Shown in pieces: positions 6,742 through 43,041 of a stretch of DNA of 43,041 nucleotides. Position 1 is the first letter of the stretch; every line of letters begins with the position of its first letter. The DNA is taken from NCBI GenBank assembly GCA_002368605.1, contig DFEB01000020.1, forward strand, positions 1 to 43,041, written 5' to 3'. The notes under the pieces are model-generated. The model saw only the letters and a list, made by a program, of their open reading frames with translations, was not told the origin of the DNA and did no database searches. The position numbers and the translations under genes are program-made. This DNA is from Treponema sp. UBA3813. Its GTDB lineage: Bacteria > Spirochaetota > Spirochaetia > Treponematales > Treponemataceae.

Positions 6742-6770
6742 ATTATAACGCAAAAACTAAAGGTTGTCTC
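6742..6770 (-). promoter_or_regulatory. Promoter of the CRP-like regulator
   Basis: TATAAT (6742-6747, minus strand) with GAGACA (6765-6770) 17 bp upstream. Its position rules out the 6753 start and supports the TTG at 6720 with its GGGG ribosome binding site. Confidence 0.6.
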
Positions 6771-6819
6771 TATTATATATCGTCAAAATAAAAATCTTGC
6801 TGAATAAAAATAGTTACTT

Positions 6820-29774: not shown

Positions 29775-29809
29775 GTGTACCTCTTTGCTTTTAATTTTTG
29801 ACTGTTTCC

Positions 29810-29838
29810 TTACAATTATATCATAAATCTGCTAGAAT
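29810..29838 (+). promoter_or_regulatory. Promoter of the 5-formyl-THF cyclo-ligase gene
   Basis: TTACAA (29810-29815) and TAGAAT (29833-29838) spaced by 17 bp; the ATG follows 6 nt later without an RBS. It overlaps the divergent hydrogenase promoter. Confidence 0.5.
29815..29823 (-). promoter_or_regulatory. Extended -10 promoter of the hydrogenase gene
   Basis: TGATATAAT on the minus strand, about 41 nt before the hydrogenase ATG. It shares bases with the divergent promoter, so the two genes may compete for RNA polymerase. Confidence 0.6.
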
Positions 29839-29844
29839 TGCATT

Positions 29845-30537
29845 ATGAATGGCGGAAACACAAGGGATTTTAAGAAAATTTTACGGAAAGAAATGAAGCA
29901 AACCCTCACGCTCTTTCACGAAAATCTTTCAGAAAGAGAAAAAGATTCTCTGGCCGAAAATCTTACAGAAAAAATCACAGTCCTTGACGAATACAAGAAT
30001 TCTCCGCTGATTCTGGCCTATATTCCCGACAAACTTGAAGCCGATTGCAGACCAGTCATTTCAGACGCGCTGAAAAAAGGGAAAAAAGTCGCCGTTCCCA
30101 AAGTGGATTTTGAGGCCCTGAAAGACGGCAGGAGCGAGATGGACTTTTATTTTTTAGAAGAAGGAAAATCTCTGGAAGACCAGCTGGAAGCCGGAGCCTA
30201 TGGAATCTTGGAGCCAAAAACTGATTTGAAAAAACTTGATTGGGGTCTTGCGGGGCAAGAAACAGGTGAAGGCTGTCCCGCAGAGGGGGTAGCGGAAAAC
30301 CGCGAAGCGGGTTGGAGTGAGGGGGAGACTTCCCCCTTTATGCTTGTTCCCGGCGTGGCATTTACGAAAGACGGAAAGCGACTGGGGCACGGAAAAGGAT
30401 TTTACGACATTTACATAGAAAAATTACAGAAGGCCGGCCTAAAGCCCTATTTGTGCGGAGTCGCCCTTCCCTGCCAGATTGTCACAGACCTTGCCACCGA
30501 CAAGCACGACATCCTCATGGACAGGGTAATCTTTTAA
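29845..30537 (+). CDS. 5-formyltetrahydrofolate cyclo-ligase with an in-frame palindromic insertion
   Basis: 230 residues, cytoplasmic. It converts 5-formyl-THF to 5,10-methenyl-THF with ATP. Visible: N-terminal KILRKEMKQTL, LAYIPDKLEADCRPVI, AYGILEPK, LVPGVAFTKDGKRLGHGKGFYD (ATP-binding glycine loop) and KHDILMDRVI at the end. Between EPK and LVPGVAF there are about 31 extra residues (134-164) encoded by a repeat element that also occurs in gltB and purF. Without it the protein has about 199 residues, normal for the family. A TAGAAT box ends 6 nt before the ATG. Motifs on both sides are intact, so the enzyme is probably active. Confidence 0.9.
   Translation: MNGGNTRDFKKILRKEMKQTLTLFHENLSEREKDSLAENLTEKITVLDEYKNSPLILAYIPDKLEADCRPVISDALKKGKKVAVPKVDFEALKDGRSEMDFYFLEEGKSLEDQLEAGAYGILEPKTDLKKLDWGLAGQETGEGCPAEGVAENREAGWSEGETSPFMLVPGVAFTKDGKRLGHGKGFYDIYIEKLQKAGLKPYLCGVALPCQIVTDLATDKHDILMDRVIF
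30246..30336 (+). repeat. Palindromic coding element, copy A (in the cyclo-ligase gene)
   Basis: About 91 bp. It has TCTTGC-GGG-GCAAGA (30246-30260), then TTGCGGG pairing with CCCGCAG, the shared core GGGGTAGCGGAAAACCGCG, and a terminal hairpin GGGGGA-GACT-TCCCCC (30321-30336). The core and terminal hairpin match copy B almost base for base. Translated in the same frame as copies B and C. Confidence 0.9.
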
Positions 30538-30557
30538 CCGCTGCATACGCATTGCGA

Positions 30558-33362
30558 TTATTTTTTAGAATCTTTGCTGTAAAGGCGCAGGGGCGGAAGG
30601 GAATCAAAGTAGCTTTCGGCAATCAGGTAGTAATCCTCGATTTTGGCCTTTGAAATCGCCTGATACTGCTCAAGGTAGAGACGGGGATTTTTCTGCACTT
30701 CCCCGCTCTGCATCAACCGGGCCGTTCCCTCCTGACTTCCAGCCTTGGAAATCACTGCCATGAGCCAGTTATTCTCAAGGGAAGCGAGCAAATCACTTTT
30801 TTCAAGGTCGATTACGCAGTCAGTCTGAATGTCAATCTGAGCAGAAATATCTTTTTTAATAGAAGAAATGCATTCCGAATAGACAGAATCAACTTCTGCC
30901 GTATGCTCAACGCTGGTCACAAGGATTCGGGCAAAAGGCAGGTCATTTTCGGGAAGAAGGGCTTTCACTTTCGTTTCGGGATATTTTGAGGAAAGTCTGG
31001 CTTCCATTCGCTGGGCAAGCTCGATTAAAATCGCGTCAAAAAGAGCACAATCCGTGGAAGAAAGGTCGGGCGAAGGAAGACAATACAAAACCGGGTCAAG
31101 GAATTTTGTGGTGGGAATGAGAACGGCTGGCATGGGCCCGGCTTCTTCCTTTGAAATGTCAGTCAGAAAAAGATGACGGAGGGAAATTCTTTTTTCTTTT
31201 GCGGAAAGCTTTTCAAAGTCAGGCTTTTTGACCCGCAAATCAGTGGAACGAGTCTGGGCAATGCTTGATAAAAGTCCGAAAGTTGAATTTAAGGATTTGA
31301 GCAATTTTTCGTCACTTTTCAATCCGCCTGAGAGAATCAGGGAAAAACGGCTTGAATCCAATAAAATTGGATAGGCTTCCTGAATCTTGGTAAAATCAAG
31401 ATTTTTCGCGGGCTTGTCCTCGGTGTCGCGGTAAAGCTTGGGATAATCCGAATCCCCGTACAAAAGTCGCACCGCCTCGCACAGAAGCTGGAATTCCGTG
31501 CTTCCGGTTTTGAGCCGCCATTGAGTGCGCTCGTCATAAGTCACGCCGTCTGCGGTCGCAGGATTGATGTCGCAATAAACCAGAGCCGTGTAAGAGGCCT
31601 GAATCGCAAAATCCATTTCTCCCGAAAGACAAGTGACCGTAATAATCGAGTGGGTCGAAAGATTTTGCGCGCCGACTTCGTAAAATCCAGAAATCGCACC
31701 GTTTGAGGCAAACAAATCCAGCTGACGGTTAATGTTGACCGCAATGGAATCGGCCAGCACAGAAGCCAGTCCCGGAACTTTGTCCGTAAAAAGAAGCTCG
31801 CCGCCTGCAATCGTAAGGGAAAGAACCGCCGTTTTTGAATTTTCGCTCCGTTTGACCGTGACAGGAATATCGTTTTGAAGGGTAAAATTTGAAAATTCAG
31901 AAAGATTTTTTTCGATGAAGCGGTCTGCCGAGGAAGCGATTTCTTCCAGAAGATTTTTATTTGATTCTGGATTTTCTTCGTTCTGGGCAAAAAGTTTTTT
32001 GTAGAAAGTCTGATTGTACCAGGCACTTTCTTTTTGGGGAATTTCGACAAAACCGGCTTTCTTAAAATCTGCGGCATATTTTTGGTAAACTGCGGAATTC
32101 AAAAAGACGAAAACAAAAGGCTCTTCCGCCATGATTTTTTCCTGCAAATCAGAAATTTCGATTTGTGAGAGACGGTCATTTTTTTGGAAAAAGTCTTGGA
32201 CGGCATCAGAAGAATTATTTGACAGGGAAAGCTGGCGGGAAAAGGCTTCCATGGTTGCGTCGGAACTTTCTGAAAGCCGGGTAAAGGCCGTTCGGGATTT
32301 TTTGAGGGAATTTTCCAGCTCTTTTTTGGAGAAAACATCCTCGTCCCGGCTCATGGTCAGGAATAAATCCACCTGCACCACCGGAGAGACCTTTGCCTTG
32401 CCGATTAAAGACTGAATTATAAGCCGTGAAGATGATTTTTCCTGGGCGGAAGAGACATCAATGTATTCGTCACCTAAGATTTTTAAATTCCGCTGTTTTA
32501 AGAGCAATTTTTTTAATGCGGAAGAATCTTGATTCCAGCTTGCAGAAAGGGCGTCCGCCTCGTCCCGGTCAAGGGATGTGTACTGAAGGGCGATTTGTGT
32601 CATTTCGTCGGAAAAATCTTTGTGGGAAAGAATGAATTTCCGGGATTTTGGATTTTTGCCGGAAGAAAGGGCTTTTCGGACTTTTTCTGAATCCCAGTCC
32701 TGCCTGCCAGAAAGATTGACTGTCTGAAACTGGGAAAAATATTTTTTTACCAGGGAAAGACAAGCCCCCTCAGTGATGTTTCCGTTGATGAAAAGAATCG
32801 CATTTGAGGGAGAATAATAAGATTCCCGGATTGAATTGAGGGATGTTCTCAGCTCTTCGATTTTGTGTTTTGAAAAGACGGCTGGATTTACGCCGCTTTC
32901 CCGCGACCAGGGAGATTCAGCAAAGACTTTTGAATCAATGGCAGAGTTGATAAAGCCTGCCGGACTCTGGGAATATTCTTTGAACTCGGAATCCATGATT
33001 TTAAAAAGCGAGGAAAGCTCTGAGTCCGAAACAGAGAGAGGCTTTAGCTTCTGGGAAAGAGAAATCAAGGCCTTTTCACAGGCGGCGGGAGCGACTTTTG
33101 AGACGAAACGAACGCTGTCATTGGAAATCTCGCCGCCAGCAAGACGAGCGTACATGGTAAAAAGCCCGCCGTTCAAAGGACTCTGATTTGTGAAGCCAGC
33201 TTCAAGGCAAAGCTCCAGCCGTACCGTGGGGGAAGAAGAATCTTCAAGGAAGTAGATTTGAAGGCCGTTTTCGAGAGTGAAATGCTTAATGTCCGAAGAA
33301 GTGAAGGCGAAAAGGGAAAAAGATAAAAAAAAAGCTAGAAAAAAAACGAAAATTCTCTTCAT
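30558..33362 (-). CDS. M16-like peptidase homologue without the zinc motif
   Basis: 934 residues with a signal peptide (MKRIFVFFLAFFLSFSLFAF). The N-terminus has the M16 pattern HFTLENGLQIYFLEDSSSPT..LCLEAG, but where active members have HxxEH this protein reads GGLFTMYARL, so it should not bind zinc. The second half repeats the fold (LSLTIAGGELLFTDKVPG). Probably a periplasmic non-catalytic partner, as inactive M16 subunits often are. Start is ATG 33362 (or 33368); both stand directly behind the T tract of the tRNA-Asn terminator, with no RBS and no room for a separate promoter between. Expression may therefore rely on readthrough or on a promoter inside the tRNA region. Confidence 0.75.
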   Translation of the reverse strand: MKRIFVFFLAFFLSFSLFAFTSSDIKHFTLENGLQIYFLEDSSSPTVRLELCLEAGFTNQSPLNGGLFTMYARLAGGEISNDSVRFVSKVAPAACEKALISLSQKLKPLSVSDSELSSLFKIMDSEFKEYSQSPAGFINSAIDSKVFAESPWSRESGVNPAVFSKHKIEELRTSLNSIRESYYSPSNAILFINGNITEGACLSLVKKYFSQFQTVNLSGRQDWDSEKVRKALSSGKNPKSRKFILSHKDFSDEMTQIALQYTSLDRDEADALSASWNQDSSALKKLLLKQRNLKILGDEYIDVSSAQEKSSSRLIIQSLIGKAKVSPVVQVDLFLTMSRDEDVFSKKELENSLKKSRTAFTRLSESSDATMEAFSRQLSLSNNSSDAVQDFFQKNDRLSQIEISDLQEKIMAEEPFVFVFLNSAVYQKYAADFKKAGFVEIPQKESAWYNQTFYKKLFAQNEENPESNKNLLEEIASSADRFIEKNLSEFSNFTLQNDIPVTVKRSENSKTAVLSLTIAGGELLFTDKVPGLASVLADSIAVNINRQLDLFASNGAISGFYEVGAQNLSTHSIITVTCLSGEMDFAIQASYTALVYCDINPATADGVTYDERTQWRLKTGSTEFQLLCEAVRLLYGDSDYPKLYRDTEDKPAKNLDFTKIQEAYPILLDSSRFSLILSGGLKSDEKLLKSLNSTFGLLSSIAQTRSTDLRVKKPDFEKLSAKEKRISLRHLFLTDISKEEAGPMPAVLIPTTKFLDPVLYCLPSPDLSSTDCALFDAILIELAQRMEARLSSKYPETKVKALLPENDLPFARILVTSVEHTAEVDSVYSECISSIKKDISAQIDIQTDCVIDLEKSDLLASLENNWLMAVISKAGSQEGTARLMQSGEVQKNPRLYLEQYQAISKAKIEDYYLIAESYFDSLPPLRLYSKDSKK

Positions 33363-33368
33363 AGACAT

Positions 33369-33398
33369 AAAAAAAGCCCGACCTAAAGCCGAGCTTTT
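33369..33398 (-). terminator. Terminator of tRNA-Asn
   Basis: On the minus strand an 11-bp stem (AAAAGCTCGGC with GTCGGGCTTTT, two G-U pairs) and a T tract. It ends immediately before the start codon of the M16-like gene. Confidence 0.8.
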
Positions 33399-33471
33399 CG
33401 ACCCCTGCTGGGCTTGAACCAGCGACACACGGATTAACAGTCCGTTGCTCTACCGACTGAGCTAAGGGATC
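33399..33471 (-). tRNA. tRNA-Asn (GTT)
   Basis: 73 nt. Acceptor stem GATCCCT/AGGGGTC, D arm TTAGCTCAGTCGGTAGAGC, anticodon GTT in GGACTGTTAATCCG, T arm GCTGG-TTCAAGC-CCAGC, discriminator G. CCA is not encoded. Confidence 0.97.
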
Positions 33472-33495
33472 ACTTTGTTCTTACGAACGAATGTT

Positions 33496-33524
33496 ATGTT
33501 ATATTAAACAAAAAAAAGTGTCAA
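33496..33524 (-). promoter_or_regulatory. Promoter of tRNA-Asn
   Basis: TTGACA (33519-33524) and TAACAT (33496-33501), 17 bp apart, on the minus strand, with 24 nt to the tRNA 5' end. Confidence 0.75.
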
Positions 33525-33583
33525 TAGAAATTGCAAAGAAAAATAAAAATTTTGAAAAAATTGTCTTTGAAGTCCAATAGAAT

Positions 33584-33613
33584 AAAAAAAAGACTGCCTT
33601 GAAAGACAGTCTT
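33584..33613 (-). terminator. Terminator of tRNA-Asp
   Basis: AAGACTGTC and GGCAGTCTT arms on the minus strand, followed by eight T. It separates the two tRNA genes, each of which has its own promoter. Confidence 0.85.
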
Positions 33614-33619
33614 GTAATT

Positions 33620-33693
33620 CGGGAGCGAAGGGGCTCGAACCCTCGATCTCCGGCGTGACAGGCCAGCGCGATAACCAGCTTCGCTACGCCCCC
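33620..33693 (-). tRNA. tRNA-Asp (GTC)
   Basis: 74 nt. Acceptor GGGGGCG/CGCTCCC with one G-U pair, anticodon GTC in GGCCTGTCACGCC, T arm GAGGG-TTCGAGC-CCCTT, discriminator G. CCA is not encoded. Confidence 0.97.
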
Positions 33694-33706
33694 AAATGAT
33701 TAGTCT

Positions 33707-33735
33707 ATTTTAGAGAAAAGCGTTGATCGTGTCAA
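33707..33735 (-). promoter_or_regulatory. Promoter of tRNA-Asp
   Basis: TTGACA (33730-33735) and TAAAAT (33707-33712), 17 bp apart, on the minus strand; 13 nt to the tRNA 5' end. Confidence 0.85.
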
Positions 33736-33770
33736 GCGGAAGATGCGGAAAATTCAAAAAAAATTACTGA

Positions 33771-33799
33771 TTGAGTTATAAGATGTTTTTCTATATAAT
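33771..33799 (+). promoter_or_regulatory. Promoter of the aspartokinase/homoserine dehydrogenase gene
   Basis: TTGAGT (33771-33776) and TATAAT (33794-33799), 17 bp apart. The ATG is 31 nt further and has GAGG, so this gene has an ordinary short leader. Confidence 0.75.
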
Positions 33800-33830
33800 A
33801 GGCACATATTATTTTAAAAACGAGGAATCT

Positions 33831-36326
33831 ATGCTCACTCTTAAATTTGGCGGCACATCAATGGGAAGTGCCAGACGAATTCTTGATTCTGTTCAAATTA
33901 TGACTGGCCGTGCAAAAGAAGGCCGAATCAGCGTTATAGTGTCGGCTGTTGCCGGCGTTTCAAACAGTCTGCAGGCTGCAATTGACGGTTGTGTCACCGG
34001 CGGAAACGCAGCGAGCTATGTTGAGAGCATAAGAAAAACACATTCTGAAATCTGCGCACAAATCGAAGCGGAGCTCAAAGGCTTTTCCGCAAAAGAAGTG
34101 CTTAAAAAAATCGAAAACAATTTTGTTGAGCTGGAAAAATTACTGGCTGGTGTTGCCTCATTCGGTGAGTGCCCGAAATCAATTCACTGCCGCATCATGG
34201 GAATGGGCGAACTTTGCTGCGTTCCAATTGTAAATGCAGTTCTTCAGGCAAAGGGCGAAGATGTCATGCTTTTGGACAGCCGCCGCTTTATCTTTACCAC
34301 AGGAAATCAGGCCGAGGGCGATGTAGATTATGGCAGAACGGCAATCGCGCTGGAGCCTTACAAGGACGGCGGAAAGCAGAGTTCAGCGCGAATTCTTCTT
34401 TTCCCAGGCTTTGTCTGCTCATGGAGCGAGCATTACGACGATGAGCCAAAGATGGGGCTTCTCGGACGAAACGGCTCAGATTTTTCGGCTGCTGTAGTGG
34501 CTTCATGCCTTGAGTCAAGAAAATGTGAATTCTGGACTGATGTAGACGGAATCTACACGGCAGATCCACGGGTCGTAAACGACGCAATTTTGGTCGAAGA
34601 CATGACTTATGAAGAGGCCATGGAGCTTTCTTTCTTCGGAAGCAAAGTCCTTCACCCGAAAACTTTAACTCCTCTGGCCGCAAAAAATATCGAAGCCTGG
34701 AGTTTGAATTCTCACAATCCAAGCGCAAGGGGAACAAGAATCGGCCGGGGTCCTTTTGAAAGCGAAAAGAACGCAGGTCCTGTCCGGGGAATTTCCTGCC
34801 TGAAAAACACTGCACTCATTTCAGTGAGCGGAAGCGGCATGAAAGGCAAGACCGGTATCGCCAGCCGAATTTTTGCGGCAGTCAGCCGGGCGGGAATCTC
34901 AATGCTTTTGATTACCCAGTCTTCTTCTGAATACACAATCTCTTTCTGCGTAAAACAGACTGAGGCTCAGGCTGTGGAAGATGTTCTTTCTCAGGAATTT
35001 TCCCTTGAAATCCGTGACGGTCTTATCAATAAAATCAATGTTCAGGAGCATACGGCAATCGTCTCTATCGTCGGCGACGGCATGAAACAGAATTGCGGTG
35101 TAGCAGGAAAATTCCTCGATTCCCTCTCAACACGGGGAATCAACATTCTTGCAATCGCACAAGGCTCTAGCGAAAGGTCAATTTCAGTCGTTATCGGCGG
35201 AGAATTCGGGGATATCGCTGTCAAGGCGGCTCACCTCTTCTTCTTCAACACTGCCCAGCCAATCGAAGTGTTCGCATTCGGAGCCGGAACAATCGGTGGC
35301 GCCCTGCTCGACCAGATTCGCGACCAGCACGACAAGCTTCTTGAACAGAAAATCGACATCAAAGTTTGCGCAATCTCAACTTTGGACGGCATGATTCTCG
35401 ACGGAAACGGAATCGATCTTTCAAATTGGCGAGAACTGAGCAAAAAAGCTACTGAAAAGGCAAATGTTGACGAAATCTTGGACTTCGTTCGGGATACAAA
35501 GCCTCTAAACCCGGTTTTTGTTGACTGTACTGCAAGCTACGATTTGCCGAACCGATATCTGGACATTTTTAAGGCAGGTATGAGCATTGCAACCCCAAAC
35601 AAGCGGGCTAACTCAATGAACATGGATTTCTACCACAAGCTACGCCAGGTTGCTAACGAAAATCACTGCCGCTTCCTTTACGAAACAAATGTTGGAGCAG
35701 GCTTACCAATCATCGACACCTTGCAAAACCTCTTTAACTCAGGCGACCGCCTTACAGGCTTCAACGGAATCATGTCAGGCTCTCTCTCATACATCTTCGG
35801 AAAGCTGGACGAGGGCAAAAAGTTCAGCGAGGCCGTCCTTGAGGCAAAAGAATTGCGCTACACCGAGCCTGATCCACGAGACGACCTTAAAGGCACTGAT
35901 GTCGCGCGCAAAGCACTGATTATCGCCCGTGAAAGTGGCATGACAATCGAACTTGATGACATCAAAATGAACTCAATCTTCCCGGAGAACTTCTCAATCG
36001 AAGGCACAACAGAGGAATTCCTCAAACGACTGCCGGAAGTAGACTCATACTTTGAGGAAAAAATGGCAAAACTCAAAAAAGAAAACAAAGTTTTGCGAAT
36101 GGGTGCTTCAATCAAAGACGGAAAAGTTTCTGTCGGTATGCTTGAAGTCGGCCCAGACGATCCGCTTTACGGAGTTCGAGGTGGCGAGAACGCATTCGTA
36201 TTCCAGACTGAACGATACTCACCGATTCCCCTTACCGTCCGCGGATACGGAGCAGGAGCAGGAGTTACGGCAGCCGGTGTCTTTGGAGATATTATGAGGA
36301 CGGTTAGTTTTAACCCGACTAAGTAA
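33831..36326 (+). CDS. thrA: Bifunctional aspartokinase / homoserine dehydrogenase
   Basis: 831 residues, cytoplasmic. It catalyses the first step of the aspartate pathway and the reduction of aspartate semialdehyde to homoserine, towards threonine and methionine. The aspartokinase domain (about 1-290) shows LKFGGTSMGSA, NGSDFSAAVVASCLE and DVDGIYTADPRVV. ACT regulatory domains follow (about 310-460; AAVSRAGISMLLITQSSSE and LSTRGINILAIAQGSSE), suggesting feedback inhibition. The dehydrogenase domain begins with the NAD(P) loop FGAGTIGGALL at about 483 and contains GIMSGSLSYIFG and YTEPDPRDDLKGTDVARKA. ATG 33831 has GAGG 5 nt upstream. Could be called metL; thrA and metL cannot be told apart here. 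Confidence 0.93.
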   Translation: MLTLKFGGTSMGSARRILDSVQIMTGRAKEGRISVIVSAVAGVSNSLQAAIDGCVTGGNAASYVESIRKTHSEICAQIEAELKGFSAKEVLKKIENNFVELEKLLAGVASFGECPKSIHCRIMGMGELCCVPIVNAVLQAKGEDVMLLDSRRFIFTTGNQAEGDVDYGRTAIALEPYKDGGKQSSARILLFPGFVCSWSEHYDDEPKMGLLGRNGSDFSAAVVASCLESRKCEFWTDVDGIYTADPRVVNDAILVEDMTYEEAMELSFFGSKVLHPKTLTPLAAKNIEAWSLNSHNPSARGTRIGRGPFESEKNAGPVRGISCLKNTALISVSGSGMKGKTGIASRIFAAVSRAGISMLLITQSSSEYTISFCVKQTEAQAVEDVLSQEFSLEIRDGLINKINVQEHTAIVSIVGDGMKQNCGVAGKFLDSLSTRGINILAIAQGSSERSISVVIGGEFGDIAVKAAHLFFFNTAQPIEVFAFGAGTIGGALLDQIRDQHDKLLEQKIDIKVCAISTLDGMILDGNGIDLSNWRELSKKATEKANVDEILDFVRDTKPLNPVFVDCTASYDLPNRYLDIFKAGMSIATPNKRANSMNMDFYHKLRQVANENHCRFLYETNVGAGLPIIDTLQNLFNSGDRLTGFNGIMSGSLSYIFGKLDEGKKFSEAVLEAKELRYTEPDPRDDLKGTDVARKALIIARESGMTIELDDIKMNSIFPENFSIEGTTEEFLKRLPEVDSYFEEKMAKLKKENKVLRMGASIKDGKVSVGMLEVGPDDPLYGVRGGENAFVFQTERYSPIPLTVRGYGAGAGVTAAGVFGDIMRTVSFNPTK

Positions 36327-36343
36327 AGTCTGCCACACGGCTC

Positions 36344-36372
36344 TTGACAATAGTCTTCAATCTTTATAAAGT
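36344..36372 (+). promoter_or_regulatory. Promoter of gltB
   Basis: TTGACA (36344-36349), with TAAAGT 17 bp away (36367-36372) or TATAAA at 15 bp. It starts 18 bp after the thrA stop and gives a leader of about 140 nt that contains both hairpins described below. Confidence 0.6.
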
Positions 36373-36389
36373 ATCACCAACGGCAAAGA

Positions 36390-36442
36390 GGTCGTAGATA
36401 TTGTTTCGTTTTTCGATGCATTGTCTACGGCCTTTTTGTTTT
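36390..36442 (+). terminator. First leader terminator before gltB
   Basis: GGTCGTAGATA (36390-36400) pairs with TGTCTACGGCC (36422-36432), 11 bp including G-U pairs, followed by TTTTTGTTTT. The 21-nt loop holds TCG-TTTTT-CGA. It lies downstream of the gltB promoter, so it may be an attenuator; it could also finish readthrough from thrA. Confidence 0.75.
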
Positions 36443-36466
36443 ATCTAATCTCAAAGTCGGTAATGA

Positions 36467-36509
36467 AGCCGCATGTGCAGGGGTAATCTTTGCGCGTGCG
36501 GCTTTTTTT
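36467..36509 (+). terminator. Second leader terminator, overlapping a mini-ORF and ending at the gltB RBS
   Basis: AGCCGCATGTGCA (36467-36479) pairs with TGCGCGTGCGGCT (36491-36503), 13 bp with two G-U pairs, then a T tract ending one base before GGAG (36510-36513), the gltB ribosome binding site. A 7-codon frame (36463-36486, MKPHVQG) overlaps the left arm. Position suggests transcription attenuation of gltB. Confidence 0.8.
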
Positions 36510-36518
36510 GGAGCGAAA

Positions 36519-39500
36519 ATGAACAGCAAGACTTTATACGAACCTTCTTTTGAACATGATGCCTGCGGAATCGGGGCGGTGGCAAATATTGACGGAAACG
36601 CGTCTCACAAAATCGTGGACAAGGCCCTTTCCATTGTGGAAAAACTGGAGCATCGGGCGGGAAAAGACGCAAGCGGAGAAACCGGCGATGGCGTGGGAAT
36701 CCTGCTTCAAATCTGCCATGACTTTTTTAAGAAAGCCTGTGAGCGCGGGGAGATTGCCAGCCGCAACGGTTCGGTTTGTAAAAGTATCGGAGACCAGCGG
36801 GATTACGGCGTAGGCATGTTTTTCTTTTCGATGGAGGAAGCTGCTCTGGAGAGTGAGAAAATCCGCTTTGAAAAGTGCTGTGCTGGCGAGGGCTTGGAAT
36901 TTTTGGGCTGGCGAAAGGTTCCTGTAAATGAAAATGTGCTCGGAAAAAAGGCACTGGACTGCATGCCTCAAATCTGGCAGAGCTTTGTGGCAAGGCCTGA
37001 AAATTGCGAAAAAGGCCTTGATTTTGACAGAAAACTGTATGTCCTGCGCCGTGAATTTGAAAAAGACGCCGGGGTTTTAGGGGTAGGGAGCGACCCGAAA
37101 GGGGCAAAACTTGCAAAGCAAGTTTTGAGCGAGTCTCCCCTAGGAGAGGGGGTAGCGGAAAACCGCGAAGCGGCTTGCAGCGAGGGGGAGACTTCCCCCG
37201 CAAAAACCTACATCTGCTCACTTTCAAGCCGCACAATCGTTTACAAGGGAATGTTTTTGGTGAACGAACTTCGTACCTTTTATAAAGATCTTCAATCAGA
37301 AGAATACAAGTCGGCACTGGCCATCGTTCATTCGCGCTTTTCAACAAACACTCAAGCCTCCTGGCAGCGCGCCCACCCCAACCGCTTTATCGCCCACAAC
37401 GGAGAAATCAACACGATTCGGGGCAATGTTGACCGAATGCTGGCCAGAGAAGAGACTTTGCGCTCCCTGCAATTTTCTGACTGCGACATGAAAAAGATTT
37501 TGCCTGCGGTGGACACTAGCGGCTCTGACTCTGCAATGCTTGACAACACCCTTGAATTCCTCGTGATGAACGGCATGCCTCTTCCCCTTGCGGTGATGAC
37601 TTGTATCCCGGAGCCTTGGAAGCACGACGAGAACATGAGCCGGGAGAAAAAGGATTTTTACCATTACTGGGCCACTATGATGGAAAGCTGGGACGGTCCT
37701 GCGGCCATTCTCTTTAGCGACGGAGACCTGCTCGGTGCCACCCTTGACCGAAACGGTCTGCGCCCAAGCCGCTACTACATCACGAAAGACGGGCTTCTCA
37801 TTTTAAGCTCGGAAGTGGGCGTGCTTGACATTCCAGAAGAAAATATTGCCAAAAAATCCCGCCTCATGCCCGGAAAAATGCTCCTCCTTGACACGGTGCA
37901 GAAAAAAATCATCAGCGACGAGGACTGCAAGAAAAATTATGCCGCCCTTTATCCCTACGGCGAGTGGCTGGACATGAACCTTCTCCACCTTGCGGACTTG
38001 AAGATTCCAAACAAAAAAATTCCTGTGAGCACGATGGAAGAGCGGACCCGCCTTTACCGGGCTTTCGGCTGGAAGAGCGAGGACATCAACGAGATGATTC
38101 TGCCTCTGGCGAAAAATGGCCTTGAGCCTACAGCCAGCATGGGCGTGGACATTCCCCTTGCGGTGATGAGCGAAAAGCATCCCAGCCTTTTCAGTTATTT
38201 CAAGCAGCTTTTTGCCCAGGTGACAAATCCGCCCATCGACAGCCTGCGGGAAAAAATCGTCACGGACACCACGGTTTATGTGGGAAAGGACGGAAATTTG
38301 CTGGAGCCGGTGGCCTCAAACTGCCGCGTGCTGGAAATAAACAATCCCATTCTGACCGGTGTTGACCTGATAAAAATCGCTGCCCTGAATCAGCCGGGAC
38401 TGAAAGCGAAGAGGATTTCGATTTTGTTTGAAAAAGGTCTGGAATCCGCTTTGGAAAATCTCTTCTCCCAAATCGATTCCGCTTACGCTGAGGGCTGCAA
38501 TATCATCATTTTGAGCGACCGTGGCGTGGACGAAAATCATGGGGCTATTCCGGCAATTCTCGCGGTTTCTGCGGTGGAGCAATATTTGATCCGCACGAAA
38601 AAACGGACGGCTCTTTCGGTGATTTTGGAGAGCGGCGAGGTGCGGGATGTACATCAGGCGGCCATGTGCTTGGGCTATGGGGCGCGGGCGGTGAACCCGT
38701 ACCTTGCCCATGAGGCGATTGCAGAACTTATCGACCAGAAAATCTTGGACAAGGATTATCACACTGCCATCGACGACTACAACAAGGGCATTATAAACGG
38801 CATCGTAAAAATCGCGGCAAAAATGGGAATCTCAACGATTCAGTCTTACCAGTCCGCGCAGATTTTTGAGGCGGTGGGAATCGCAGACGATGTAATCGAA
38901 AAATATTTTACAAATACCGTGAGCCGAGTGGGTGGAATCGGCTTAAAAGAAATCGAAGAAGATGTGCTCTACCACCACAGAAGGGCATTTTCTTCAAAGG
39001 AAGAAGCAAAATCTCCCCGACTGGACTTTGGCGGAATCCATAAACTGAAAGTTGGGCCAGAGGCGGAAGACCATCTTTTGACGCGGGAGACAATTCTTGC
39101 CCTGCAGGAATCTACGAAAAATGGCGACTATGCTCGCTTTAAGGAATACACGGCTTTGGTGGATTCAAACGACCATCCACACACACTTCGGGCAATGCTT
39201 GATTTTGACTTTGACAAAAACGGCGGCATTTCCCTTGAAGAAGTGGAAAGCGTGGAAAAAATCGTTCAGCGATTCAAGACTGGCGCCATGTCTTACGGTT
39301 CCATCAGCGAGGAAGCCCACAAGTGCCTGGCTCTGGCCATGAATCATCTGCACGGAAAATCCAACAGCGGCGAGGGCGGCGAGAATCCAGAGCGACTGGG
39401 AACGGAATACAATTCTGCAATCAAGCAGGTAGCAAGCGGTCGCTTTGGCGTTACGGAAGAATATCTTCTTTCGGCAAAAGAGATTCAGATTAAAATGGCA

Positions 39501-41411
39501 CAGGGAGCAAAGCCGGGCGAGGGCGGCCATCTTCCTGGAAAGAAAGTCTATCCCTGGATTGCACGGACACGATACGCAACTCCGGGCGTGGCCTTAATTT
39601 CGCCTCCGCCTCACCACGACATCTATTCTATAGAAGATTTGGCTCAGTTGATTTATGATTTGAAAAACGCCAACCGAAAAGCCCGAATCAGCGTAAAACT
39701 GGTAAGCGAGGCGGGAGTTGGAACCGTGGCATCGGGCGTGGCAAAGGCTGGAGCCCAAGTCATTTTGATAAGCGGACACGACGGCGGAACGGGAGCCGCC
39801 CCCATGTCTTCGATTCATCACGCGGGCTTACCCTGGGAACTGGGCTTGAGCGAGGCTCACCAGACTTTGATTCAGAACGGGCTTCGAGGCAGGGTCGTCC
39901 TTGAAACTGACGGCAAGCTGATGAGCGGCCGGGATGTGGTCATTGCGGCCTTGCTGGGAGCGGAAGAATTTGGTTTTGCCACAGCCCCCCTCATCGCCCT
40001 GGGCTGCTCAATGCTCCGAGTCTGCCAGCTGGACACCTGCCCATTCGGAGTTGCCACCCAGAACGAAAAGAACCGGGCAAAATTCCCCGGAAAGGCAGAA
40101 TATGTTGAGAATTTCATGAAGTTCGTCGCTCAGGAAATGCGGGAAATAATGGCCCGGCTTGGAGTGCGCACCGTGGAAGAACTTTGCGGCAGAAGCGACT
40201 TGCTCAAGCTGAAAGAACGGCAGGGCTTCCGCCGGGCAGATTTGGTGGACTTACAGAGACTTCTGGCAAAGAATGAGGATTCCCCGTCATTCCACGGCTT
40301 GACCGGGGAATCTCCTGACAGCTGGAAGCAAAATCGCGATTCCTTTGATTTCGGACTTGAAAAGACAGTGGACGAAAAAACTCTGCTTCCTTTGTTTGAA
40401 ACCGGGGATTTTAAGGTAGTGAGCGACGGCGTAGCCGGCAAAACCTGCGAGGCAGGTTTTGAGCGAGTCTCGGCGAAGGCTGTGCCTGAACCGCAAAGCC
40501 CCTTAGGAGAGGGGGTAGCGGACAAGACAACAAAGCGGAGCGAATCGGCACTGCGAGCAGGGGCGATTCGTGGAGCGACTTGGCTTGGGAGCGAGGGGGA
40601 CGCTTCCCCCATCCCAATCCAATCCACCGACAGAACGGTAGGAACAATCCTTGGAAGTGAAATCCAGAAGCGATACGGCGGCTCACTGTCTGACGACACA
40701 TTCACCGTAAACTTTGCGGGAGGAGCCGGCCAGAGCTTTGGCGCATTCATTCCAAAGGGACTGACTCTTCGCCTGACAGGAGACGCCAACGATGCATTCG
40801 GAAAGGGCTTAAGCGGCGGAAAGCTTGTTTTGAAAAAGCCGGCCGGATTCGACGGAGTAGCAGAAGACAATATAATAGTAGGAAATGTCGCGCTTTTTGG
40901 TGCGACCAGCGGAAAGGCCTTTATCAACGGCGTGGCGGGCGAGCGTTTCTGCGTGCGAAATTCAGGAGCAAGCGTTGTTGCGGAAGGCTGTGGCGACCAC
41001 GGTCTTGAATACATGACAGGCGGAACTGCGGTAATCCTTGGCAGCACAGGAAAAAATCTCTGCGCGGGAATGAGCGGCGGCGTGGCATACATTCTTGATG
41101 AAAAGCACGACCTTTACAAAGGCCTGAACCACGAGCTTGTAAAAATGTACGCCCTGGACGACGCAACAACAACACTCCGCGACAAAACTGACGAGGAAAA
41201 CCTGCGCAATTTAATAGAAGAACATGTTGCAGAAACTGGCAGCCAAAGAGGAAAAGAAATTCTTTCTGACTGGGAGCACTACAAAACATGCTTCAAGAAG
41301 ATTATTCCTAACGATTACCTTCGGATTATGACGGAGATTTTCGCGGAGGAAGATGCAGGCACGGCACATGACGAGGCGGTGCTTGCCTCTTTCAGAAAGT
41401 GCACGGCCTAG
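36519..41411 (+). CDS. gltB: Glutamate synthase large subunit with three in-frame repeat insertions
   Basis: 1630 residues, cytoplasmic. It moves the glutamine amide to 2-oxoglutarate, giving two glutamates. N-terminal glutamine amidotransferase with Cys16 (EHDACGIG); FMN-binding synthase domain (SVKLVSEAGVGTVASGVAKA, GHDGGTGAAP); 3Fe-4S motif C-x5-C-x4-C in GCSMLRVCQLDTCPFG; C-terminal GXGXG domain (TGGTAVILGSTGKNLCAGMSGG). Repeat-derived inserts occupy about residues 190-227, 1253-1266 and 1300-1364. Without these 117 residues the length is about 1513, usual for GltB. GGAG lies 5 nt before the ATG. No small subunit (gltD) follows; purF comes next after 27 bp. Confidence 0.95.
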   Translation: MNSKTLYEPSFEHDACGIGAVANIDGNASHKIVDKALSIVEKLEHRAGKDASGETGDGVGILLQICHDFFKKACERGEIASRNGSVCKSIGDQRDYGVGMFFFSMEEAALESEKIRFEKCCAGEGLEFLGWRKVPVNENVLGKKALDCMPQIWQSFVARPENCEKGLDFDRKLYVLRREFEKDAGVLGVGSDPKGAKLAKQVLSESPLGEGVAENREAACSEGETSPAKTYICSLSSRTIVYKGMFLVNELRTFYKDLQSEEYKSALAIVHSRFSTNTQASWQRAHPNRFIAHNGEINTIRGNVDRMLAREETLRSLQFSDCDMKKILPAVDTSGSDSAMLDNTLEFLVMNGMPLPLAVMTCIPEPWKHDENMSREKKDFYHYWATMMESWDGPAAILFSDGDLLGATLDRNGLRPSRYYITKDGLLILSSEVGVLDIPEENIAKKSRLMPGKMLLLDTVQKKIISDEDCKKNYAALYPYGEWLDMNLLHLADLKIPNKKIPVSTMEERTRLYRAFGWKSEDINEMILPLAKNGLEPTASMGVDIPLAVMSEKHPSLFSYFKQLFAQVTNPPIDSLREKIVTDTTVYVGKDGNLLEPVASNCRVLEINNPILTGVDLIKIAALNQPGLKAKRISILFEKGLESALENLFSQIDSAYAEGCNIIILSDRGVDENHGAIPAILAVSAVEQYLIRTKKRTALSVILESGEVRDVHQAAMCLGYGARAVNPYLAHEAIAELIDQKILDKDYHTAIDDYNKGIINGIVKIAAKMGISTIQSYQSAQIFEAVGIADDVIEKYFTNTVSRVGGIGLKEIEEDVLYHHRRAFSSKEEAKSPRLDFGGIHKLKVGPEAEDHLLTRETILALQESTKNGDYARFKEYTALVDSNDHPHTLRAMLDFDFDKNGGISLEEVESVEKIVQRFKTGAMSYGSISEEAHKCLALAMNHLHGKSNSGEGGENPERLGTEYNSAIKQVASGRFGVTEEYLLSAKEIQIKMAQGAKPGEGGHLPGKKVYPWIARTRYATPGVALISPPPHHDIYSIEDLAQLIYDLKNANRKARISVKLVSEAGVGTVASGVAKAGAQVILISGHDGGTGAAPMSSIHHAGLPWELGLSEAHQTLIQNGLRGRVVLETDGKLMSGRDVVIAALLGAEEFGFATAPLIALGCSMLRVCQLDTCPFGVATQNEKNRAKFPGKAEYVENFMKFVAQEMREIMARLGVRTVEELCGRSDLLKLKERQGFRRADLVDLQRLLAKNEDSPSFHGLTGESPDSWKQNRDSFDFGLEKTVDEKTLLPLFETGDFKVVSDGVAGKTCEAGFERVSAKAVPEPQSPLGEGVADKTTKRSESALRAGAIRGATWLGSEGDASPIPIQSTDRTVGTILGSEIQKRYGGSLSDDTFTVNFAGGAGQSFGAFIPKGLTLRLTGDANDAFGKGLSGGKLVLKKPAGFDGVAEDNIIVGNVALFGATSGKAFINGVAGERFCVRNSGASVVAEGCGDHGLEYMTGGTAVILGSTGKNLCAGMSGGVAYILDEKHDLYKGLNHELVKMYALDDATTTLRDKTDEENLRNLIEEHVAETGSQRGKEILSDWEHYKTCFKKIIPNDYLRIMTEIFAEEDAGTAHDEAVLASFRKCTA
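37086..37199 (+). repeat. Palindromic coding element, copy B (first gltB insertion)
   Basis: About 114 bp. Order: GGGAGCGA, small hairpin CCC-GAAA-GGG, hairpin CAAAACTTGC-AAA-GCAAGTTTTG (37105-37127), GAGCGAGTCTC, GGAGAGGGGGTAGCGG, AAAACCGCGAAGCGG, and terminal hairpin GGGGGA-GACT-TCCCCC. AGTCTCCCC (37132-37140) also pairs with GGGGAGACT (37185-37193). It encodes about residues 190-227, just before YICSLSSRTIVYKG, a segment that normally follows the preceding strand directly. Confidence 0.92.
40278..40312. repeat. Hairpin repeat of GATTCCCCG type (second gltB insertion)
   Basis: GATTCCCCG (40278-40286) and CGGGGAATC (40304-40312) form a perfect 9-bp stem; GTCA/TGAC extends it with one bulge, leaving a 10-nt loop. 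The GTCATTCC...GGCTTGAC interior is the form of a repeat that I know as intergenic in many bacteria. Here it encodes part of NEDSPSFHGLTGESPD in GltB. Confidence 0.8.
40417..40610 (+). repeat. Palindromic coding element, copy C (third gltB insertion)
   Basis: About 194 bp, the longest copy. It has GTGAGCGA, hairpin CGGC-GTA-GCCG, hairpin CAAAACCTGC-GAG-GCAGGTTTTG (40439-40461), GAGCGAGTCTC, an extra 30-nt block, GGAGAGGGGGTAGCGGA, then a longer divergent interior, and the terminal hairpin GGGGGA-CGCT-TCCCCC. It encodes residues about 1300-1364, placed before the conserved NRTVGT-like segment (TDRTVGTILGSEI). Confidence 0.9.
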
Positions 41412-41438
41412 AAACGGGGGAAGGGAGAATAAAAGAAA

Positions 41439-42935
41439 ATGGGCTTAAAAGACGAATGTGGCGTTGCGGGAATTTTCGGCGCGGAAAATGCGGCCAGCCT
41501 TTCTTACTTTGCGCTGACTTCACTGCAGCACCGGGGGCAGGAAAGTGCAGGAATCGCGGTGAGCGACGGAAAGAGCGTGCGGCTGAAAAAGGAGCTGGGG
41601 CTTGTGGGTGATGTTTTTGCTCCGGCGGATTTTGAGAAATTGAAGGGAAGTATTGCCCTCTCTCATGTGCGCTATGCCACGGCAGGCGGCCGAACCCTTG
41701 AAAATGCCCAGCCATTTTTAAACACTTTCAAAAACGGCTCCATCGCCCTCGCTCATAACGGTCAGCTGGTGAATCACGCTTGTCTGCGGGAAAAACTTGA
41801 GGACGGCGGCAGCACTTTTGCCAGCAACAGTGACAGCGAAGTGATTCTGAAACTGATTGTGCGCAAGTTCATCGAAAAAGGCGGCAAGCCCGGAAGCGGA
41901 ATGTCCCTGCCCCAGGACGATGACCTTTTCGTGCAGGCCGTGATTGAGGCAATGAAAGAAATCAAGGGCTCTTTTGCCCTCTGCATTATGACCGAAAATA
42001 TGCTGATTGGCGCGCGCGACCCCAACGGAATCCGCCCTTTGTGTCTTGGAACTTTAGGCGGGGAAAGCCTTCCCCTCGCTCCAGCCAACGCTAACGCGTC
42101 GTCTTCCGCTACCCCTTCTGCGGGCTCAATCGCCGCCCGCAACGCCCGCTCAATTTCCTATATCCTTGCCTCTGAATCCTGCGCCATTGACGCGGTGAAC
42201 GGAAAATTTTTGCGGGATATTGAGCCGGGAGAAATTCTCGTGATTACAAAAGAAGGGCTCCGAAGCGAAAAATATGCCTGCGAAAAAAAGAAGACCTGTA
42301 TTTTTGAATATGTCTACTTTGCCCGCCCCGACAGCGTGATTGACGGCATCCCCGTGCAGGAAGCCCGCTACCGCATGGGGCAGACTCTCGCCCTTGAAAG
42401 CAAAACGGAAGCGGATGTGGTCATCGGAGTGCCTGACAGCGGAATCGGAGCGGCCATGGGCTTTTCAAAGGCAAGCGGCATCCCTTATGTGACCGGCATC
42501 ATCAAGAACAAGTACATAGGCCGCACATTCATCGCGCCGACTCAGGCCGAGCGGGAAAACATGGTCTTCGTCAAACTCAACGCCATCAAAAGTGATTTGG
42601 AAGGAAAGCGGGTCATTGTGATTGACGATTCCATCGTGCGGGGAACCACAAGCCGCCGTCTAGTTGAGATTTTGCGCCGGGCGGGAGCAAGGGAAGTGCA
42701 TTTCAGGGTTTCTTCCCCGCCGGTAAAATTTCCCTGTCATTTGGGAATAGACACGCCCAGCAAAGCAGAACTAATCAGCAGCACTCACGAGCTAGAGGAA
42801 ATCCGTGCAGAAATCGGCGCGGACTCCCTGGCTTTTATCTCTCTTGAAGGAATGATTCAGGCTTTGCGCTCTTCTTCTTCTGAGGGAAAGGAAGGCTGGT
42901 GCGAGGGCTGTTTTTCAGGGATTTATCCTGTGTAA
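41439..42935 (+). CDS. purF: Amidophosphoribosyltransferase with an in-frame palindromic insertion
   Basis: 498 residues, cytoplasmic. It makes phosphoribosylamine from PRPP and glutamine, the first step of purine synthesis. N-terminal nucleophile Cys7 after a six-residue propeptide (MGLKDECGVAGIF), SLQHRGQESAGIA, the PRPP-binding loop VIVIDDSIVRGTTS, and cysteines that fit the 4Fe-4S form (CIFEYVYFARPDS, PCHLGIDTP, CEGCFSGIYP). Between GIRPLCLG and SYILASESCA about 31 residues (207-238) come from a repeat in reverse orientation. Without it the length is about 466, usual for the family. GGGAG lies 11 nt upstream; 27 bp separate it from gltB. Confidence 0.95.
   Translation: MGLKDECGVAGIFGAENAASLSYFALTSLQHRGQESAGIAVSDGKSVRLKKELGLVGDVFAPADFEKLKGSIALSHVRYATAGGRTLENAQPFLNTFKNGSIALAHNGQLVNHACLREKLEDGGSTFASNSDSEVILKLIVRKFIEKGGKPGSGMSLPQDDDLFVQAVIEAMKEIKGSFALCIMTENMLIGARDPNGIRPLCLGTLGGESLPLAPANANASSSATPSAGSIAARNARSISYILASESCAIDAVNGKFLRDIEPGEILVITKEGLRSEKYACEKKKTCIFEYVYFARPDSVIDGIPVQEARYRMGQTLALESKTEADVVIGVPDSGIGAAMGFSKASGIPYVTGIIKNKYIGRTFIAPTQAERENMVFVKLNAIKSDLEGKRVIVIDDSIVRGTTSRRLVEILRRAGAREVHFRVSSPPVKFPCHLGIDTPSKAELISSTHELEEIRAEIGADSLAFISLEGMIQALRSSSSEGKEGWCEGCFSGIYPV
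42058..42150 (-). repeat. Palindromic coding element, copy E (purF, reverse orientation)
   Basis: Read on the minus strand it has TGCGGGC pairing with GCCCGCA (42119-42141), then CCGCAGAAGGGGTAGCGGAA, GGAGCGAGGGG, and terminal hairpin GGGGAA-GGCT-TTCCCC (42058-42074). The core matches copy A best. Since purF is on the plus strand, the element is translated from the opposite strand and still has no stop codon. Confidence 0.85.
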
Positions 42936-42976
42936 GGATATTTTCAAGGCCACAAGGAAAATCGCCAGTCTGTCTT

Positions 42977-43041
42977 CTAGCAGGATTTTAAAAATTCCAC
43001 GAAAAGAGGGCTGGCCTTGTTGGGTCGGCTCTTGAATTCCG
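42977..43041 (-). CDS. pyrG: CTP synthase, C-terminal end (partial)
   Basis: The minus strand is open from the window edge to a TAG at 42977-42979 and encodes EFKSRPNKASPLFVEFLKSC. This matches the C-terminus of CTP synthase, where HPEF is followed by a (S/T)RPNRPxPLFxxF segment; the Glu at the edge would be the last member of the glutaminase triad. It converges on purF with 41 bp between the stop codons and no clear terminator. Only 20 residues are visible. Confidence 0.75.
   Translation of the reverse strand, partial: EFKSRPNKASPLFVEFLKSC

Follow-up and report, generated by a model that had tools for sequence, protein, structure and literature searches.

Four palindromic inserts in three enzyme genes of Treponema sp. 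UBA3813 belong to a family of short elements, which probably are non-autonomous mobile palindromes kept inside genes only where they lie in frame in a tolerant loop. The family has a common three-hairpin structure, occupies in-frame positions, and is biased to one codon register per orientation; what a given loop contains differs between species. The stretch analysed (contig DFEB01000020.1, 43,041 nt, hereafter the window) carries one copy in the gene for 5-formyltetrahydrofolate cyclo-ligase, two in that for the large chain of glutamate synthase (gltB) and one in that for amidophosphoribosyltransferase (purF). All four had been recognized as related in a preliminary description made from the letters alone; the observation is confirmed, with refined copy limits (Table 1), while the interpretation offered with it is partly supported. 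As described there, the host reading frame stays open through every copy. Copies 1 to 3 share one register, copy 4 being read on the opposite strand. The 12-base core first proposed (GGGGTAGCGGAA) is exact in three copies, copy 3 having GGGGTAGCGGAC, whereas a core of 11 bases, GGGGTAGCGGA, is exact in all four. The purF insert maps between residues 186 and 188 of the solved relative 1ao0_A. In 7mfm_G, the solved relative for gltB, one insert falls between residues 177 and 179, the other between residues 1210 and 1229.

The census comprises 94 copies, 36 of them in the genome of UBA3813 itself (G000; 2.6 Mb, 88.5% complete) and 58 in the nearly complete genome G092 (further G numbers denote other genomes). 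Both ends could be set in 86 copies, of which 79 are 72–95 bp long. The order is GGGG, hairpin 1, AGA(A/G)GGGGTAG, hairpin 2, AGCGAGGGG and a closing hairpin (hairpin 3) GGGGGAgactTCCCCC ending with CCCC(C); in the window the closing hairpin reads GGGGGAGACTTCCCCC or a variant, just as it had been described. Hairpin 1 exists in two interchangeable versions, GTTGCGGG..CCCGCAG or TTTTAGGGG..CCCCTAGG. The GC content is 66% in the element and 45% in the window. Among 28 copies aligned over their 3' part, 34 double-change cells were counted versus a shuffled mean of 10.3 (0 of 500 shuffles as high), and 8 of the 14 base pairs show a double change (8 of 500 shuffles as high). These compensatory changes support the hairpin structure. 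GTAG stands directly 5' of hairpin 2 in 26 of the 28, that is, internally between hairpins 1 and 2 and not at an end. The gltB copies, taken at first as plain members, do belong to the family but are composites, in which a second palindrome sits in the loop of hairpin 1; the same arrangement is seen in locus L017 and in the G101 copy. This second palindrome family (GTAGGGAGCGAC..AAAACYTGC..GCARGTTTTGAGCGAGTCTCGG..) occupies hairpin-1 loops in either orientation (twice in the window, and in L017 and L074). In a further gltB locus, L220, GTTTCGACAGGCTCAACC is placed in the loop of hairpin 2.

Further copies are plentiful in G000; their absence would, by the preliminary description, have spoken against it. 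The 11-base core occurs 12 times versus 0 for the reversed control, more than chance would give, 11 of these within copies and one (L033) outside any copy, and BLAST with copy 1 found 20 places (best non-self E 1.6e-18), with matches in 21 of the 39 genomes searched, its own included. A covariance model of the 3' part of the element (R1) gave 37 matches at E <= 1e-3, the weakest few of which (22–27 bits) are less sure; 36 cover all or most of the model and form the census, the remaining hairpin-3-only match being omitted. Five further matches with E values of 0.001–0.1 were left uncounted, one of which, on contig C15, is a copy interrupted by N. In G092, 61 matches were obtained and 58 used, the three weakest being omitted. 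R1 matches are present in 85 of 98 genomes of the genus, where at most 58 candidates were scored per genome and counts are hence lower bounds. Named relatives place this genus as rumen and gut Treponema, T. bryantii included: gltB of G015 is identical to that of T. bryantii XBD1002 at two sites, and gltB of G092 to that of T. bryantii B25 at one of two.

The family is not confined to one group of spirochaetes. Within the phylum, a match at E <= 1e-6 was found in 32 of 247 genomes and 14 of 125 genera, including 18 of the 19 sampled genomes of the own genus, and BLAST detected one copy on a T. saccharophilum plasmid. Outside the spirochaetes, relatives are carried by plasmids of Sphingomonas, Sphingobium, Tardibacter and Magnetospira (R1 57.7 and 62.8 bits in the two tested), and BLAST finds the part comprising hairpins 2 and 3 in seven microvirus genomes obtained from rodent faeces (R1 67.2 and 65.9 bits in the two tested); hairpin 1 was not seen 5' of these in the microvirus copies. 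The alphaproteobacterial plasmid copies with hairpin 1 lie at 1468–1560 of L305 and 1482–1561 of L306, that of Tardibacter between ardC and ssb genes. The microvirus copies (L304, 1988–2038; L307, 1936–1986) close a small hypothetical protein gene ending in ..SEGETSPS or ..SEGEASPS. No BLAST match was obtained in E. coli genomes, no R1 match in the ten non-spirochaete loci among 80 gltB loci, and none in a phage search with the Magnetospira copy. In IMG/VR, the exact 28-base pattern matched 0 contigs and a gapped pattern matched 2. The gltB of L285 (FOSY01000002.1, titled Lachnospiraceae bacterium KH1T2) is 61% identical to that of the window, versus 58–59% in the other non-spirochaete records kept.

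A copy was classed as in-gene if it is spanned by an open reading frame (ORF) that extends for 60 codons or more, with a codon score of 0.05 or higher, to either side of it. This test was passed by 27 of the 94 copies (15 of 36 in G000, 12 of 58 in G092) and failed by 67 (21 and 46, respectively), 11 of which have a long ORF on one side. The G092 count used is 12 and may be 13, as L147 (DUF763) failed the codon test though a Pfam match spans the insert. Genes make up about nine tenths of such a genome; in-gene copies are thus fewer than random landing predicts and look like survivors of selection. The earlier emphasis on conserved enzymes is right for the hosts in the window, but genes are not the preferred place of the element. 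Besides the three window genes, the hosts comprise carA, an ABC-F-like ATPase, UppP/BacA, an AddA-like helicase-nuclease, Rsm22, a CobB/CobQ-type amidotransferase, RecG, UvrC, FolE2, DUF554, PolA, MetH (two copies), a NUDIX protein, a radical SAM protein, UvrD, MnmE and one ORF without Pfam match, some of these names being our interpretation of Pfam matches. When 23 host ORFs were scanned against Pfam, the core lay outside every printed match in 15 (most often between two domains) and inside one in 7, the last ORF being matchless. The carA and ABC-F linkers are filled in both G000 and G092.

The in-gene copies are strongly biased in codon register. Counted at the GGGGTAG anchor, all 14 reverse copies use one register and 11 of the 13 forward copies another. 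In the 67 copies failing the in-gene test, the three registers are open in 43, 42 and 7 copies (forward) and in 53, 49 and 35 copies (reverse); other registers are thus also open, and stop codons do not force the bias. Compared with these open rates, the bias has binomial probabilities of 0.006 (forward) and 2e-6 (reverse), assuming independent copies, which is doubtful for carA and the ABC-F gene, occupied in both genomes. At loci of named species, 37 of 51 copies lie in genes, with 18 of 18 reverse and 16 of 19 forward copies in the preferred register, although these 51 were gathered around gltB and many share descent. The preferred registers encode GEGVAENREA..SEGETSP (forward) and GESLPLAPA..SSATPSAG (reverse). 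With all open copies considered, their mean net charge is 0.03 and 1.29, respectively, while that of the other four registers is 2.7–3.3. In each orientation, the preferred register is thus the one whose peptide consists of small residues and carries the least charge. The last C of the element coincides with a codon boundary in 22 of the 27 in-gene copies, in either orientation.

A given loop may be short in one species, hold this element in either orientation in another, and hold a different palindrome in a third. In the cyclo-ligase loop (18 of 30 loci aligned, 12 filtered out), the simple element is present in G000, G023 and G020, and other hairpin versions in G099 and G053; G101 has a composite, G022 a short remnant, G105 no element and G066 another palindrome (DCRVKPGHDTA). 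The purF loop (23 of 30 loci aligned, 7 filtered out) is short in 12 and holds this family in 7. The purF element is reverse in G000, and forward and degenerate in the near relative G023 (85% identical); a CACACGGATT-type palindrome takes its place in G112 and a GGTTTCGATAC-type one in G015. In gltB (94 of 97 loci compared), the family is found near residues 186, 638, 824 and 1298 in different species and in both orientations, and peptides of other palindromes (VVEPVETT, PSTSSGT, CRVKPDNDT and SHGFETT) occur at the same loops; FPCLTRES and HAELVSAS, judged at the peptide level, presumably come from palindromes as well. Three kinds of these other palindromes, putative repeat families, were read as DNA. 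In metH, G092 and G015 share the element at one linker, beside which G015 has an extra GGTTTCGA palindrome; a second linker holds this element in G092, the unrelated palindrome in G015 and two elements in a row in G082. The GGTTTCGA..TCAACCACC kind of palindrome also keeps the frame in these Treponema enzyme loops, as in L227, L243 and L220 (gltB) and in L312 to L314 (metH). The statement that homologues have short loops thus holds in so far as these sites are short or insert-free in other species, but in some of them other palindromes fill the same loops.

Inheritance from a distant ancestor, which the preliminary description had named as an outcome that would speak against it, was not observed: the loop at the first gltB site is short in T. 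porcinum and in the seven Lachnospiraceae/Clostridiales shown. That the inserts are merely ordinary variable linkers of old enzymes, similar to each other by low-complexity coincidence or common descent, has a vanishingly small probability. Loop length in gltB does vary also in species without palindromes, but this explanation is contradicted by the recurrence of one DNA element, its hairpins covarying, in unrelated genes in either orientation and also outside genes, and by its lack in distant orthologues. Next to the window, the coding context at C50:48860–48877 of G000 (L299) contains a remnant that consists of hairpin 3 only and reads SEGETSP; in L219, L227 and L268 the matching context (GWKMI.P or FGVLFSVR) is occupied by complete copies, both orientations being represented.

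Outside the inserts, the ratio of nonsynonymous to synonymous divergence (dN/dS) is 0.20 (G000/G023) and 0.11 (G000/G020, synonymous sites near saturation) for the cyclo-ligase gene, 0.15 (G000/G023) for purF and 0.025 (G092/G015, dN 0.016) for metH. Purifying selection acts on these three hosts, which hence look like working genes. Within the inserts (25–33 codons), dN/dS is higher than in the hosts (0.60, 0.29 and 0.70).

These results can be brought together as follows. The family would have spread through the Treponema of rumen and gut, and in lower numbers to other spirochaetes as well as to plasmids and microviruses, its copies landing both within and between genes. Survival in a gene would need a kept frame and a loop or inter-domain linker tolerating extra residues, together with the register that gives a flexible, small-residued and least charged peptide, one per orientation. 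Such loops may be general landing sites, occupied in other species by other palindromes, and palindromes are seen nested in one another's hairpin loops. We infer that copies are moved by an activity supplied in trans that uses the hairpins and may work on DNA in single-stranded form, for which the single-stranded stages of plasmids and microviruses may offer a route. The inserts are probably translated and kept in the protein, where they would be mostly neutral. Several results weigh against this account. Among the 86 copies with settable ends (the 5' end could not be set in the other 8, which were left out of the flank analysis), no excess of target-site duplications was found for k = 1 to 8. 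No transposase could be tied to the element; of the four hairpin-3-only places in G000, one is a coding remnant, another turned out to be a full copy with an interruption by N, and two are isolated hairpins, no transposase-bearing form being among them. No copy was caught moving, and no strain-level pair of empty and filled sites was seen, in a set of one genome per species. Covariation does not extend to further pair types, which are not above the shuffles (11 versus 11.3, 377 of 500 as high). The register is not identical on both strands, as the forward and reverse codon boundaries of in-gene copies agree at the closing hairpin but differ by one base at GGGGTAG. Finally, synonymous divergence (dS) is lower in the inserts than in their hosts (0.045 versus 0.333, 0.487 versus 1.84, the latter near saturation, and 0.108 versus 0.65, over 25–33 codons), which could reflect constraint on the hairpin DNA, exchange (gene conversion) between copies, or chance.

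The low synonymous divergence is shared ground for two other explanations. According to the first, the inserts are old and immobile, have been inherited, and were reshuffled at fixed sites by gene conversion between copies, with exchange of hairpin 1, of hairpin 2 and of the orientation. It would fit that one cyclo-ligase loop has several versions of both hairpins among six species and that the carA and ABC-F linkers are occupied in both genomes. We consider it unlikely in view of match counts from 0 to about 60 among congeners, four different gltB loops filled in different species, insert-free short loops in many species, and the presence on plasmids and in microviruses. According to the second, the element is a functional RNA or DNA signal (a terminator, an mRNA stabiliser or a binding site) kept for its structure, in-gene copies being by-products or internal signals. 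Its covariation, the closing hairpin followed by T and pyrimidines, and the copies of L017 and L020 just 5' of a putative ribosome-binding site are in line with this; given that in-gene copies are register-biased and found in both orientations, that sites differ between species and that no Rfam family matches over the inserts, a signal is very improbable. The Rfam 15 scan of positions 29500–43041 of the window reached the gathering score for two tRNAs only and gave four weak matches, none over an insert.

A third explanation concerns the mover. The element might be a repetitive extragenic palindrome (REP) or terminal inverted repeat (TIR) moved by RAYT/TIRYT tyrosine transposases of the GTAG superfamily, with the GTAG before hairpin 2 as the RAYT mark. 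The missing target-site duplication would agree with it, as would the asymmetric flanks: 76 of 86 copies are followed on their 3' side by T, and then mostly by pyrimidines. Both features resemble IS200/IS605-like movement. Genes with a PF01797 domain are present in 4 of 24 genomes of the genus (G006, G010, G014 and G018), of which G014 and G006 are copy-rich, and REPs within genes are known (PMC3733652). However, GTAG is internal in this element; PF01797, found in 13 of 39 genomes, is absent from G000 as well as from the copy-rich G015 (99% complete) and G020 (95%), and around six of seven genes inspected among the 29 listed PF01797 matches R1 finds nothing. At the G014 gene the nearest copy is about 2.1 kb away and the surroundings contain 32 GGGGACAG octamers in 16 kb, a different repeat. 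Movement by such transposases is thus a distinctly improbable source of the family. The RAYT-like gene of L115 (G014:C145:46000-62000; 249 aa, about 6754–7500) lies among GGGGACAG octamers, which probably form a repeat family of its own.

A bolder extension of the mobile-palindrome account is rather doubtful. Here, permissive loops of housekeeping enzymes would serve four or more palindrome families, among them the present one, as common landing sites; these families would replace one another, nest in one another's hairpin loops and stay in frame. The element would be nearly 'ambisense', with one open register per orientation giving a harmless linker and with codon boundaries coinciding on both strands at the closing hairpin; lacking its own transposase, it would move in the form of single-stranded hairpin DNA, pass between phyla via plasmids and microviruses, and keep lengthening the inter-domain linkers of core enzymes.

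Table 1. Host genes, element copies and nested palindromes in the window.
Feature	Position	Strand	Basis
Host gene 1: 5-formyltetrahydrofolate cyclo-ligase, 230 aa, PF01812	29845..30537	+	ORF and Pfam
Copy 1, 95 bp, hairpin-1 version A (TCTTGCGGGG...CCCGCAGA), encodes ..GLAGQETGEGCPAEGVAENREAGWSEGETSP	30242..30336	+	R1 match 30282-30336, 80.5 bits
Closing hairpin (hairpin 3) of copy 1	30321..30336	+	sequence; pairs 47-62 of alignment A2
Host gene 2: glutamate synthase large chain gltB, 1630 aa; GATase_2, Glu_syn_central, Glu_synthase, GXGXG	36519..41411	+	
Copy 2, composite, 129 bp, hairpin-1 version B (TTTTAGGGG...CCCCTAGG)	37071..37199	+	R1 match 37145-37199, 80.3 bits
Second palindrome within hairpin-1 loop of copy 2	37084..37135, limits approximate	+	repeat D15 common to copy 3; similar stretches in L017, L074
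Copy 3, composite, 207 bp, hairpin-1 version B, enlarged hairpin 2	40404..40610	+	R1 match 40508-40610, 48.7 bits
Second palindrome within hairpin-1 loop of copy 3	40416..40494, limits approximate	+	repeat D15
Host gene 3: amidophosphoribosyltransferase purF, 498 aa	41439..42935	+	
Copy 4, hairpin-1 version A, reverse to purF, encodes GGESLPLAPANANASSSATPSAG..	42060..42149	-	R1 match 42060-42119, 66.8 bits

In-frame palindromes had been known mainly from Rickettsia and Wolbachia, obligate intracellular bacteria in which weak selection could be held responsible; the Wolbachia palindromic elements are a comparable system. Here, the same phenomenon is met in bacteria of the gut and rumen, among them cultured ones (T. 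bryantii). The enzymes concerned are under strong constraint, and the species are numerous enough for one and the same loop to be observed short, with the element, or with a different palindrome. This makes it directly testable whether selfish DNA builds protein linkers and what selection demands of the peptide. No report of such elements in Treponema was found in the open-licence literature. The accessible part of PMC12306157 does not mention Treponema, that of PMC8040213 describes Treponema RNA candidates upstream of ribosomal protein genes, and T. pallidum appears in a table in the part of PMC1590033 available.

Two established classes were considered and, by the features examined, rejected. 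For a GTAG REP, a terminal GTAG on a palindrome of 20–40 bp was not found, there is no RAYT gene in G000, G015 and G020, and none stands adjacent to the element at the seven genes inspected. As far as the accessible text of PMC3733652 goes, REPs are 20–40 bp long with a terminal tag, those with GTAG being associated with RAYTs, and spirochaete families are listed for CGTC REPs and not for GTAG REPs; the element differs by its internal GTAG and its greater length. The same text describes intragenic GTAG/CGTC REPs as small palindromes inside genes, often DNA repair genes, and hosts of this type are found here, too (AddA-like, RecG, UvrC, PolA and UvrD). For a classical miniature inverted-repeat transposable element (MITE), neither longer terminal inverted repeats nor a target-site duplication were found in the 86 copies, the inverted ends of which do not extend past the G/C runs. 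Bacterial MITEs (Correia, ERIC and RUP) are likewise non-autonomous, structured and repeated, some with in-frame fusions (PMC2229807), but this element has only GGGG/CCCC at its ends and no parent transposon was found. A known structured RNA, finally, was discarded with the Rfam result given above.

The closest likeness is to the Rickettsia palindromic elements (RPEs), with which the inserts had been compared from the beginning, and the comparison holds as an analogy of behaviour. Like RPEs, the element is a short palindromic repeat lying in frame in unrelated conserved genes, with additional intergenic copies. It differs in having three hairpins and mostly 72–95 bp, where PMC2229807 gives 105–146 bp for RPEs, in belonging to a different phylum and in sharing its loops with other palindromes. 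RPE-4 and RPE-6 are CGTC repeats (PMC3733652), and a CGTC tag was not seen at the ends of the aligned copies. An RPE-bearing enzyme, encoded by gmk, was active with a changed substrate affinity, as reported in PMC2229807 and PMC10969869. By analogy, and not by sequence comparison, the element would work like an RPE. In-frame palindromes as such being already known, we file the register bias and the shared loops as new, in an element with an RPE-like way of life but of different architecture and from a different phylum.

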